Assembly: GCF_029633965.1 (NCBI RefSeq)
Contig: NZ_CP091277.1
Location: forward strand, 803,940-867,939
Direction of reading: 5' to 3'
Source of the DNA: Methanogenium sp. S4BF
GTDB taxonomy: Archaea; Halobacteriota; Methanomicrobia; Methanomicrobiales; Methanomicrobiaceae
Length of the DNA: 64,000 nucleotides
Position 1 is the stretch's first letter. Each line of letters opens with the position of its first letter. The notes under the pieces are model-generated. The model did no database searches, was not told where the DNA came from, and worked only from the letters and a program-made list of their open reading frames with translations. The position numbers and the translations under genes were made by a program. This document shows positions 14,473-31,603 of this stretch, one piece after another.

Positions 14473-15441
14473 ATGACTGCAAATACAATCTGGATTGAAA
14501 AATACCGTCCGATGGTGCTGGATGATATTGTCGGGCAGGACGAGATCGTTTCCCGCCTGAAGTCATATGTCATTTCAGGAAACCTCCCGCATCTGTTGTT
14601 CACCGGCAATGCGGGCATCGGAAAGACAACATCTGCCGTTGCTCTGGCACGGGAATTTTTTGGCGATACCTGGCAGATGAATTTCCGGGAACTGAATGCG
14701 TCGGATGAGCGGGGAATCGATGTCGTCAGAAACCAGATCAAGCAGTTTGCGCGGACAGCACCGCTCGGGGGAGCGGAGTTCAAGATCCTCTTCCTCGATG
14801 AGGCGGATGCACTGACCCCGGATGCACAGGCCGCCCTTCGCCGCACGATGGAGAATTACGCACCAAACTGCCGGTTTGTTCTCTCCTGCAATTACTCCTC
14901 AAAAATCATCGACCCCATCCAGAGCAGATGCGCCATATACCGCTTCCGGCCCCTCTCAAAAGAAGCCATTACAACTGAAATCTCCCGGATTACCACGACA
15001 GAAGGCCTGGAATGCTCCCCGGAGGCGCTGGATGCCATCGTCTATGTCGCACAGGGCGACATGCGAAAGGCCATCAATGCACTGCAGGGCGCGGCAATTG
15101 TCAGCACGCAGATCACAGGCGACATGGTGTATGAGATCACATCGACCGCACGGCCGGAGGAGATTGAGGGGCTGATGCAGACGTCGGTTGCCGGTGACTA
15201 TGAAGGGGCAGAGGCCCTGGTGCATGAACTCCTCTATTCACGCGGCATTGCGCCCAATGAACTGATAAACCAGATGTACCGGTCCATTATCCGGCTTCCC
15301 CTTGAACGCCGGCTGAAGACACAATTAATATCGCACCTTGGCGAAGCAGATTTCCGCCTCAGTGAAGGGGCGAACAGCGAGATACAGATGGAAGCACTGA
15401 TAGCAAATATTGTCCTGAGTGCTGATTCCATGAAACAGTGA
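14473..15441 (+). CDS. rfcS: Replication factor C small subunit
   Basis: The 322-residue AAA+ protein starts [19 protein letters not shown], the standard RFC small subunit opening. Walker [10 protein letters not shown] is at about 44-52, Walker B LDEADALT near 107-114 and the SRC arginine-finger motif near 152. RFC loads the PCNA sliding clamp onto primer-template junctions at replication forks. All catalytic motifs are canonical, unlike the second copy at 23797. The mcm gene follows after 14 bases, so the two are probably co-transcribed. The start has GGTTAGGGGAAT just upstream. Confidence 0.96.
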
Positions 15442-15455
15442 GGAGGCACAACCGG

Positions 15456-17585
15456 GTGGAAGACGAGATTGACGACATAGAGATTACCGACCGGGCAGCC
15501 GACTGGAACAAATTTCTCAAGAAACACTACCGCAAAGAGATAGGCGAGATCAGCGCACAGTATCCGCACCTGAAATCCCTTGAGATCGATTACCGTGAAA
15601 TCTCCAAGTGGGGAAAGACCGGGCTTGAAATCGCCGATGAACTCCTGAACAATCCAGGAAAGGTGATCGGAGATGTGAAGGATGCCATCCGGAACTACAA
15701 CCTGATCTTCACAAAGGATGAGGAGGGAAAAACGGATACGATCAATATCCGGTTCCGGTGCCTTCCCCGCAAAATCGATGTGCGTGACATCCGCTCCCAC
15801 CACATCAACACCTTCATCTCGGTGGAGGGGATTCTCAGGAAGACCACCGAAGTGCGTCCGCGGCTGACCCATGCGGTCTTCCGCTGCCTGATGTGCGGCA
15901 CCATGACCGCACCCTACCGGCAGGAGTATGCACGGTTCACGGAACCCTACCGCCCCTGCGCCCAGTGTGAGCGGCAGACCAAAATGGACCTTGTACCGGC
16001 CCTCTCCACCTTTGTCGATGCACAGAAGCTGCGCATTCAGGAGTCACCCGAAGGGCTCCGGGGCGGGGAGCAGCCGCAGACGCTTGACGTAGACGTCACC
16101 GACGACCTGACGGGGACCGTCTCTCCGGGTGACCGCATCATCGTCAACGGCATCCTCCGTTCGGTACAGCGGATGAATCACGGCCAGAAAAGCACGCTCT
16201 TTGACATCTATATCGAAGCCAATTCGATTGAGATAGGCGAAAAGGAGTTCGAAGAGGTGGCCATCTCAGAACAGGAGGAGAAGACGATCCTGGATCTGAG
16301 CAAGGATCCCGAAATATATGAGAAGATATCCCACTCCATCGCACCCTCCATCTACGGCATGCAGGATGTGAAGACGGCCATATCCCTCGTGCTCTTTGGC
16401 GGCATTGCAAAAGAGCTGCCGGACGGCAGTCACCTCCGTGGGGATATCCATATGCTCCTCGTGGGAGATCCGGGTATTGCAAAATCGCAGGTACTCCGGT
16501 ATGTCATCAAACTCTCCCCGCGTGGCATCTACACCAGTGGCAAGTCGTCCACGTCTGCCGGGCTGACCGCAACTGCGGTGAAAGACGAATTTGGTGACGG
16601 ACGCTGGACCCTTGAGGCAGGTGCGCTGGTCCTTGCGGACATGGGTATCGCTGCGGTCGATGAGATGGACAAGATGGCAAAAGAAGACCGCAGTGCACTG
16701 CACGAAGCGATGGAACAGCAGACTGTATCCATCGCAAAGGCAGGCATCACCGCCACCCTGAAGACGCGGTGCGCCCTTCTCGGAGCGGCAAACCCAAAGA
16801 TGGGGCGGTTCGATGAGTATGCCCCTATCGCAGAGCAGATCAATATGCCGCCGTCCCTGCTGTCGCGTTTTGACCTCATCTTCATCATGGAGGACAAACC
16901 GGAAGAGAAACTGGACCGGGCCATTGGTGAGCATATCCTGAAGTCCCACAGTGTCGGTGAGCTGATTCAGCACAACAGCAAATTCCCGATTGAAGGCATC
17001 GATGAGGACTACATCACCCGGCAGCTTGCACCGGTCACACCGGAGATTGAACCCCTGCTGTTCCGGAAATACATCGCCTATGCAAAGAGGAACTGCTTCC
17101 CCATCCTCACGGATGAGGCCCGCGAACACATCATGGGGTATTACCTGAATCTGCGGGCCCTTGCAGACGACAACAGCAAACCGGTCCCGGTTACCGCGCG
17201 GCAGCTGGAAGGACTGGTGCGTCTGGCAGAGGCAAGCGCACGTATCCGTCTGAGTAATGAGATTGATTTTTCTGATGCGGACCGGGTCATCGCAATTGCC
17301 GACCGGTGCCTGAAGAAAGTGGCGTATGACGCGGAGACCGGCACCTATGATATTGACAAGCTGGTCACCGGGGTCTCAAAGAAACGCCGTGATATTGCAC
17401 GGATACTCAAAGAGACGATCCGTGAACTGGCGGACGACAAAGGCTTTGCCCAGACCTCTGATATCACCAGCCATCTGGTGGCATCCGGGTACAACAAGGA
17501 TGACATTGAAAAGATGATCGAACAACTGACCAAATCCGGTGAGGCGCTCGAACCGCGGCACGGGGTCCTGCGGCTTCTCAATTAG
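15456..17585 (+). CDS. mcm: MCM replicative helicase
   Basis: The product (709 residues) is the minichromosome maintenance helicase that unwinds DNA at the fork as a hexamer. The N-terminal domain has a zinc finger, CLMCG...CAQCE (about 144-176). The AAA+ domain has Walker A GDPGIAKS (about 337-344), Walker B DEMDKM (about 402-407) and arginine finger SRFDLIF, and a winged helix closes the C terminus. A GTG at 15438 is in frame, but GAGGAGG at 15440-15446 can only serve the GTG at 15456, so I start there (EDEIDDIEITDRA). It lies just behind rfcS and is a normal full-length single archaeal MCM. Confidence 0.95.
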   Translation: MEDEIDDIEITDRAADWNKFLKKHYRKEIGEISAQYPHLKSLEIDYREISKWGKTGLEIADELLNNPGKVIGDVKDAIRNYNLIFTKDEEGKTDTINIRFRCLPRKIDVRDIRSHHINTFISVEGILRKTTEVRPRLTHAVFRCLMCGTMTAPYRQEYARFTEPYRPCAQCERQTKMDLVPALSTFVDAQKLRIQESPEGLRGGEQPQTLDVDVTDDLTGTVSPGDRIIVNGILRSVQRMNHGQKSTLFDIYIEANSIEIGEKEFEEVAISEQEEKTILDLSKDPEIYEKISHSIAPSIYGMQDVKTAISLVLFGGIAKELPDGSHLRGDIHMLLVGDPGIAKSQVLRYVIKLSPRGIYTSGKSSTSAGLTATAVKDEFGDGRWTLEAGALVLADMGIAAVDEMDKMAKEDRSALHEAMEQQTVSIAKAGITATLKTRCALLGAANPKMGRFDEYAPIAEQINMPPSLLSRFDLIFIMEDKPEEKLDRAIGEHILKSHSVGELIQHNSKFPIEGIDEDYITRQLAPVTPEIEPLLFRKYIAYAKRNCFPILTDEAREHIMGYYLNLRALADDNSKPVPVTARQLEGLVRLAEASARIRLSNEIDFSDADRVIAIADRCLKKVAYDAETGTYDIDKLVTGVSKKRRDIARILKETIRELADDKGFAQTSDITSHLVASGYNKDDIEKMIEQLTKSGEALEPRHGVLRLLN

Positions 17586-30009: not shown

Positions 30010-30285
30010 TTATTCTTCACAATACATCAGCAGTGCATCAAGCGCCGCACCATGCTCCTTCCCGCCGCACTTCCTGATAGTCCCCGCCGCCTGCTCAATC
30101 AGCGCCCACAACGCCGGAACACCCGTCATCACATACCGCGTCGCATGCACCGTCGCCTCGATAATCCCCGCCAACGCACGATTGGGAGGATGGGGCAGCA
30201 GGCTCATTATTTCAGATGCCACCGGCGTCAGTCCCACGACAAGCGTCTCCGGGTTGTCGCTGACAACGGTGGTGGTGAACGCCGG
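30010..30285 (-). pseudogene. Truncated second copy of the DUF447 gene (3' part)
   Basis: This segment encodes about 90 C-terminal residues of a DUF447 protein (FTTTVVSDNPETLVVGLTP through GGKEHGAALDALL) and then ends. It is about 88% identical by eye in DNA to the 3' part of the intact gene at 31004-31603 and lies in the same direction about 1 kb away. Homology stops abruptly at GTGAACGCC (about 30282), where the iteron-like repeat begins. The frame is still open and extends into the repeat, so a chimeric protein is conceivable, but I consider it a fragment left by duplication. Confidence 0.8.
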
Positions 30286-30289
30286 AAGT

Positions 30290-30690
30290 CCCAGCGGTCG
30301 AGGATGCCCCGCGAGCGGGAGGGAGGGGAGGGGGTGTCCCGCCGTCTTTGTTTCCACATTCCCACCCGTTTCCACCTTCTTTCCACTTCATTTTCCACCC
30401 GATTCGGGTCAATTCAGGTGCTGAAACAGGAATCAGGGTGTGATAGGACGTTTGATCCATTTCATTTCCACTTTCCGCAGGATCACACATACCTCTGTCT
30501 CCGCCTGCACAGGAAACCGGGTCGCTGAATGATATCCGATTTGGGTGGAAAACTCCCGTACTATATGTACATATATCTATACTACTACCCTCTTTACCGG
30601 ATTTATCGTCAGTAAGCGCATCGTTTTATTTCCACTTTTGGCCGGATTTGGGTGGAAAGCTGGTGGAAAAGTGGAAATGTCTCCTTCATC
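30290..30690 (+). repeat. Iteron-like dispersed repeat, copy 2
   Basis: This is the partner of copy 1 (785-1190), in opposite orientation. TTTCCAC occurs at 30351, 30369, 30380, 30392, 30465 and 30629; GTGGAAA occurs at 30545, 30652, 30663 and 30671. The array of direct copies on the left faces the array on the right across an AT-rich block with TATGTACATATATCT (about 30563-30578). The pair TTTCCAC(30629)-GTGGAAA(30652) has 16 bases between, as in copy 1. Conserved strings include GATCACACATACC and CGCTGAATGATATC. No gene is apparent. It resembles a replication or partition site more than a transposon, because I see no terminal repeats or transposase. Confidence 0.75.
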
Positions 30691-31003
30691 AGCATCTCCG
30701 GTATGTTCATCATCTGAATTGTCATCAGAATTGTCATCCGAATCGTCGGGTTTCAGCCAGACATCTGACCCTGCCCCCCGGTCATGATGCACAGTGCAAT
30801 AAAAGGAGAAGGACTGCGTCTGTTGTTTATTGTGCTGAACATTCCGTGAGATTCAGAGAACAGAAGAAGAGAGACCAGTCATACAAACAACAAGAGCCAC
30901 CGTGTATCGCAGAAAATGGGTAGTATCACAACAGGATTTCAACAACAGCCAAACACAAACACGGACACTACCTGAAAAAACGGTCAGAACAGGTCATCTC
31001 ATG
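30691..31003. other. Gap with three 12-base tandem units
   Basis: At 30710-30745 a 12-base unit (TCATCTGAATTG with small changes) occurs three times in a row. The rest is A-rich with CAACAA-type low complexity and holds no recognisable gene. It separates the iteron-like repeat from the intact DUF447 gene. Confidence 0.55.
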
Positions 31004-31603
31004 CTATTCGTGACAATATGCCAGCAGCAGATCAAGCGCCGCACCATGCTCCTTCCCACCGCACTTCCGGATAGTCTCCGCCGCCTGCTCAATCAGGACC
31101 CATAACGCCGGATCACGCGTCATCACATACCGCGTCGCATGCACCGTCGCCTCAATAATCCCCGCCAACGCACGGTTGGGGGGATGCGGCTGCAGGCCCA
31201 TAATTTCAGCAGCGACCGGTGTCAGCCCCACCACAAGCGTCTCCGGGTTGTCGCTGACAACGGTGGTGGTGAACGCCTCCCACGCCTCGCAGGTGCGCAA
31301 CCGCTGCATCGGTTTCGGCAGGTGCAGGCCGCTTTCATCTGCCGTGATATCCGCGAACGCATCCTCCGGCAGATCGCCGAACGCCGACTGCACATACACC
31401 ATCGGGTCAAAGGTGAGATTGCCCACCACCCACCCGGACGCCCGGATGTTTCTTTCCGTATGGGTGCCGTGGAAGAGCCGCATCATGATGCGGCCATTGC
31501 GGCAGATGATCCCCATCGGCGCCGCGTTGGGAGCACCGGTTGCGGGGTCTGCCGTTGTGGCGATGACCTCGTTTATGCCGTCCCCAAGGATTCCCAATCC
31601 CAT
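31004..31603 (-). CDS. DUF447 family protein (COG2457)
   Basis: The 199-residue protein matches archaeal DUF447, a split-barrel FMN-binding-like fold. The N-terminal strand region reads INEVIATTADPATGAPNAAP, then GRIMMRLFHGTHTERNI, followed by WVVGNLTFDPMVYVQSAF. The C-terminal half is helical (NRALAGIIEATVHATRYVM). The function is unknown. The gene begins inside the end of the CitG-like gene (31-base overlap), and that in turn overlaps the marker-9 gene, giving an operon seen in methanogens. A partial duplicate of its 3' end lies 1 kb downstream. A flavin- or pterin-linked role is a guess. Confidence 0.85.
   Translation of the reverse strand: MGLGILGDGINEVIATTADPATGAPNAAPMGIICRNGRIMMRLFHGTHTERNIRASGWVVGNLTFDPMVYVQSAFGDLPEDAFADITADESGLHLPKPMQRLRTCEAWEAFTTTVVSDNPETLVVGLTPVAAEIMGLQPHPPNRALAGIIEATVHATRYVMTRDPALWVLIEQAAETIRKCGGKEHGAALDLLLAYCHE

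Follow-up and report, generated by a model that had tools for sequence, protein, structure and literature searches.

The window analyzed here, 64,000 nucleotides of the closed, 2.51-Mb genome of an archaeon of the genus Methanogenium (G000; positions 803,940-867,939), carries an array of short repeats in two copies of inverse orientation, 29.5 kb apart, which raises the question of what the array is and what two such copies could do in a chromosome. The word TTTCCAC/GTGGAAA was matched 27 times in the whole window compared to 10.7 times expected from shuffled sequences, and none of 100 shuffles reached 27. Ten exact units were found in copy 2 (30351-30677). Four TTTCCAC units (30351, 30369, 30380, and 30392) form a left cluster on the plus strand (30351-30398), followed by a fifth at 30465-30471 (+), a GTGGAAA unit at 30545-30551 (-), a facing pair TTTCCAC-16-GTGGAAA at 30629-30658, and two more GTGGAAA units at 30663 and 30671 (30663-30677, -). 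Between them lie three conserved non-iteron boxes on the plus strand, GATCACACATACC (30481-30493), CGCTGAATGATATC (30523-30536), and TGTACATATATCT (30566-30578), whose inverse counterparts in copy 1 were found at 996-1008, 952-965, and 910-922, respectively; that of the facing pair is at 829-858. The preliminary description had reported that the order of units, the strings, and the facing pair recur inversely at this distance, and this was borne out (741-1185 versus 30351-30677), except that several units in copy 1 read TTCCAC rather than TTTCCAC.

For a comparison of the two copies, a third, independent copy served to define the units. Copy 1 then differed from copy 2 at 1/54 unit positions and at 94/275 other core positions (p = 5e-8), and in the wider region 168 of the 437 non-unit positions differed (p = 1e-9). 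The units are iterons and have been kept far beyond their surroundings, as had been proposed, and the equal substitution rates that were to speak against this proposal were not observed. A transposase-linked family and terminal repeats over the same span were both looked for, and neither was found. A DNA sequence search of G000 returned four copies, at 804,750 (-), 834,269 (+), 1,744,771 (+), and 2,156,744 (-), together with a half copy of the array at 1,743,863.

The copy at 1,744 kb discloses what the array is. An intact reading frame of 1072 aa, designated Rep, runs across it on the opposite strand; the array is part of a gene for a replication protein, a point that the preliminary description had missed. 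The iterons fall within the rep coding sequence, in a linker of low conservation between the HTH and the zinc finger. In the window, the entire stretch of copy 2 (30289-30807, +) was homologous to the rep 3' region by profile match (nhmmer, 1.7e-149) and was recovered in the DNA search, as was copy 1 (741-1185, -). Tblastn recovered from copy 2 a rep relic corresponding to residues about 856-1016 of the 1072-aa Rep (30321-30810, -), with a frameshift and stops, and from copy 1 a relic corresponding to residues about 873-1022 (740-1189, +), with several stops. Taken together, the relics of rep match Rep residues 851-1035, with stops. Judged by their sequence, both window copies are rep-less 3' fragments of the rep gene, hereafter called solo origins. 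The proposed link of the units to replication therefore stands, and the notion that the inverse pair consists of partners designed to pair is not supported, since the copies are two separate rep-gene relics.

Two full Reps of 67-68% identity are also encoded in G000, at 435,748 and 1,276,943, near Cdc6-like genes (PF22703). The 11 full Reps of the genus have in common a primase-polymerase-like N-terminus, a Walker-type ATPase, an HTH, and a C-terminal zinc finger, and the CxxC...CxxC at the C-terminus is invariant in all 11. As to a primase-polymerase domain, the N-terminus gave a weak PHROG match (3e-4), with the motifs DxDPVRPSG and SGNG, and no Pfam match. For the middle part of Rep, a 403-residue model based on 54 sequences had a pLDDT of 85, and the HTH helices were placed at 321-328 and 332-340. 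The helicase model aligned with MCM over 285 residues (Z 22, rmsd 3.4), and its matches in BFVD included Sulfolobus spindle-virus ORFs (hits 3 and 6). The Rep helicase is predicted from this model to have an MCM-like AAA+ fold; the AF2 model of full-length Rep, made from 11 alignment rows, was poor. By sequence, PDB yielded no match to Rep, and IMG/VR, phage, and plasmid records contained no full Rep relative; cryptic plasmids of Methanothermobacter gave distant helicase matches. A Cdc6-like gene was present within the fetched flanks of 26 of the 92 Rep loci, and Cdc6 was set aside as a candidate reader of the iterons because these loci are too few for covariation.

The occurrence of the array was next considered across Methanomicrobiales. 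An embedded array was called when the word count of the linker exceeded the maximum of 100 dinucleotide shuffles as well as that of any equal window elsewhere in the gene. It was present in 47 of the 82 full Reps with a usable linker (43/76 after the removal of six loci fetched twice), although the G009 Rep at 237 kb was flagged for an Asp-rich coding repeat and not for its GTGCAC iterons. Intact Rep ORFs run through the array. Many iteron words across elements read nTGnnA. In Methanogenium, GTGGAA, GTGCAA, GTGAAA/ATGAAA, GTGCAC, or TTTGCA occupy identical aligned positions; the iterons of one element switch word in concert, and the TGTACAT box is unchanged. The core of the TGTACATATATCT box is likewise retained in origins having other iteron words.

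Outside the linker, the column that covaried best with the word was residue 807, where the predicted recognition helix begins in the structure model; its score was reached by 18 of 500 label permutations. This residue is K where Methanogenium has GTGGAA. Elements with GTGCAA, TTGCAA, or CTGCCA have Y or H, those with GTGAAA/ATGAAA have Q, and those with CTGTCA have Q-K. In one Methanoculleus clade, SYQKTRR accompanies CTGTCA and SYYQTRR accompanies CTGCCA. The match between residue 807 and the word is a correlation.

Some intact Reps have no detectable linker iterons (G000 C1:435748-438636, L054; G010 C1:1630884-1633778, L102; G013 C51, L114), and the array is therefore not always required. 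These Reps are the reverse of solo origins and have perhaps been kept for another role. Adjoining copy 2, three 12-bp direct repeats TCATCTGAATTG were noticed at 30710-30745, which, read in the rep frame, encode the Asp-Asp-Asn-rich start of the linker. Longer versions of TCATCTGAATTG-like coding repeats have enlarged the linker in the Rep at 237 kb in G009.

Whether a solo origin is maintained can be followed at the copy at 2,156,744 in G000 (locus 3), which is syntenic in two other species, G010 (1,384,524) and G009 (1,579,883). Locus 3 of G000 and that of G010 have a frameshift and stops (alignment columns 241, 220, and 199) in common, and therefore rep had been inactivated before these two lineages parted. 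Nevertheless, the core is constrained, since it differs at 13% between G000 and G010, compared to 44% (388/887) of fourfold sites when seven ORFs close by are taken, of which a few could be antisense shadow frames. The two locus 3 sequences are 87% identical, and their identity to rep-borne origins is 67-70%, which disfavors gene conversion from an active copy. By these comparisons, selection has kept the locus 3 solo origin, and the cell probably uses it. Within the core, 2/54 unit positions and 39/264 other positions differ, a contrast that is modest when taken alone (p = 0.025). Selection on the window copies would follow from locus 3 only, because copy 2 has no counterpart and no syntenic counterpart was found for copy 1. 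Copy 2 and locus 3 have a 1-bp deletion in common, possibly a homoplasy in a T run, with low tree support.

Based on these observations, we consider it fairly probable (about 0.62) that Rep elements integrated in the chromosomes of Methanomicrobiales use the array as their replication origin and that its solo copies are bound by Rep in trans. The identity of the array as a Rep-iteron origin, as read from sequence, appears well supported. In an intact element, the origin would lie inside rep, as about ten short iterons and three boxes in the stretch encoding the winged-helix/zinc-finger linker. Rep would bind the iterons, most likely via the winged helix, and would then initiate replication by means of the MCM-like helicase and putative primase that it carries, in many cases with an Orc1/Cdc6-like partner encoded close by. 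The solo origins of the window could be bound only in trans, here by the GTGGAA-type Rep at 1,744 kb, and by titrating or handcuffing Rep they may hinder related elements.

Such a decoy or handcuffing function against related elements is the most likely role of the solo origins, with a chance that we put somewhat below even. A precedent exists, since ectopic copies of lambda ori arrest lambda in an engineered experiment (PMC4488673). Furthermore, two GTGGAA solo origins are kept in G009 (assembly completeness rated at 81%), and none of the four intact Reps found in it has the GTGGAA word. Solo origins of GTGGAA type with no matching Rep found fit a decoy and speak against an accessory origin served by a resident Rep. 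However, the non-iteron boxes are kept like the iterons in solo origins, which is more than plain titration should need. It is more doubtful still that chromosomal rep-less origins, as decoys blocking incoming or resident relatives of the same word, have driven the joint switching of iterons and recognition helix.

The retained boxes would be expected if the resident Rep, acting in trans, fired the solo origins as accessory chromosomal origins or used them as replisome-loading sites, a role that we regard as rather less probable than that of decoys, even though the full origin anatomy is preserved. Measured from orc1, the position of locus 3 is +189 to +198 kb and that of a syntenic rep-borne origin -205 to -236 kb in G000, G010, and G009 alike, and a matching GTGGAA-type Rep is encoded in G000 and G010. 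However, the equal distances to orc1 may reflect only common synteny. Moreover, the sampled GC skew of G000 has one origin-like change, to positive values close to orc1 at 1.95 Mb; it forms a plateau over 0.70-0.84 Mb, becomes negative beyond that, and has no clear extra switch at 2.16 Mb.

The window copies stand at the right edge of this GC-skew plateau (700-836 kb). For the four G000 copies to be uniform relative to fork direction, the terminus must fall between copies 1 and 2. An orientation rule by replichore was rejected, as it is contradicted by the copies at 519,484 in G010 and at 1,009,484, 738,028, and 2,048,134 in G009. The suggestion that the two sites mark borders thus found no support, given that the orientation relative to the fork fails in both of these genomes. 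A fork barrier at the terminus was discarded as well, since the plateau edge is a single case, and where the skew peaks locally it tracks gene direction.

How the solo copies arose is a separate matter. They could be the remains of non-autonomous mini-elements from which rep was deleted and the origin kept, with a helper Rep replicating them in trans; this possibility, which we hold tentatively and at less than even chance, can be combined with a decoy, an accessory, or a relic role. Two derivatives have the structure of such elements. At G010 C1:519353-520006 (L057), rep residues 267-289 are joined to 877-1072 with the origin kept, and this 519-kb derivative retains a Cdc6-like gene and the module flanks. 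In G011 C26 (L107), rep residues 227-275 are joined to 833-1071, also with the origin kept, and a 290-aa open frame covers part of it. Copy 2 is likewise an insert with a direct duplication. It adjoins an intact DUF447 gene (31004-31603, -; Pfam PF04289/PF20766), and a 273-bp direct duplicate of the 3' end of this gene (30011-30283, -), 89% identical to it and about 79% identical to orthologues, abuts the rep relic. Both the array and the duplicate are absent at the DUF447 site of four relatives (G010, G011, G013, and G008), and copy 2 is therefore most simply an insert of the G000 lineage. A single crossover of an origin-carrying circle would leave this pattern. However, no free circle was seen, the status of G009 C1 (62 kb) aside, and a mini-element origin alone leaves the constraint at locus 3 unexplained.

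It is unlikely that the solo copies are plain decaying relics without function, whose units would seem conserved because the divergence of the copies took place when they were still part of active elements. Stops or frameshifts in the relics and rep fragments that differ from locus to locus agree with decay, and for the difference between copy 1 and copy 2 this explanation is possible. It does not account for locus 3, where the core has stayed similar beyond fourfold sites after the frame had died and where the identities argue against gene conversion. In addition, the linker survived in 10 relics of G000, G009, and G010 and the helicase in 0, which has a chance near 1e-5 if retention is proportional to length (about 130 versus 290 codons). 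Finally, a transposon family or chromosomal Orc1/Cdc6 origin-recognition boxes unconnected to the Rep gene are very improbable, for although the array is multi-copy, its word resembles half of the known archaeal origin-recognition boxes, and Cdc6-like genes lie near several modules, the word is not clustered around the main orc1 gene (1,958,723; the arrays are 200 kb and 1.1 Mb away), it varies between elements while the Rep frame runs through, and neither inverted terminal repeats nor, one DUF447 case excepted, a flanking duplication was found as in a transposon or MITE.

Several neighboring features were also recorded. Beside copy 1, a HepT/MNT-like gene pair was recognized by eye at 1372-1993, and its DNA relatives (84-91%) stand beside Rep modules or relics in G009, G010, and G013 (L104, L057, and L065), as if such pairs and Rep modules were travelling together. 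CRISPR-like repeat arrays immediately upstream of a Rep module were noted in each of two species (L055 1-5800, which also has cas-like ORFs, and L062 1-4300). Elsewhere in the window are the chromosomal MCM gene (15438-17585) and a low-GC polysaccharide/glycosylation cluster (39650-62829) with glycosyltransferase, DUF2206, flippase, and GDP-mannose dehydratase genes.

By analogy, the embedded array would work like lambda ori, which maps within gene O (PMC5043065). In both, iterons and adjacent boxes lie inside the initiator coding sequence. The present system differs in being archaeal and in its initiator, which has a predicted MCM-fold helicase, a primase-polymerase-like N-terminus, and a C-terminal zinc finger. 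Moreover, the four 19-bp repeats of lambdoid origins are replaced by about ten 6-7-bp units in both orientations, and rep-less copies are fixed in chromosomes. Concerning the protein, Rep resembles the arCOG07809 family (Mpal_2033) of integrated elements in its domains and its hosts, as these appear in the open text of Makarova et al. 2014 (PMC4158269): a methanomicrobial host, and primase (putative in Rep), helicase, HTH, and zinc finger in a single protein. In that text the helicase is related to fusellovirus proteins, comparable to the spindle-virus matches of our model; however, it is named a superfamily I helicase, whereas the Rep model is MCM-like AAA+. The pRN1 protein ORF904 is a comparable archaeal replication protein in which a primase-polymerase (putative in Rep) is combined with helicase and winged helix, and an essential cis region is located at the rep 3' end, yet the open account gives it as a 100-nt stem-loop downstream of the gene, not as iterons within it (PMC4234260). 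As far as these open papers go, an origin of the iterons-in-linker kind is described neither for pRN1 (PMC4234260) nor for arCOG07809, for which no origin or iterons are mentioned (PMC4158269). The PLE satellite of Vibrio cholerae provides the nearest likeness for the word switching, as the specificity domain of RepA and the iterons of its ori co-vary and switch between related elements, and cognate pairing is required (PMC8263062). In PLE, however, the origin is separate and noncoding and modules are swapped, whereas here the change is concerted within the rep gene.

The analysis proposes where replication starts in a family of archaeal integrated elements found throughout the order; the open text of PMC4158269 describes no origin for them. 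It also presents a case, outside the lambdoid phages, of an origin encoded within the linker of the initiator itself. The dozens of natural pairs of Rep and iteron word offer material for a DNA recognition code. If the solo origins are decoys, they would be a natural case of a defense that, in the paper cited, was demonstrated only by engineering in lambda (PMC4488673), and methanogens would possess, if this is true, an origin-decoy immunity with an evolving recognition code.
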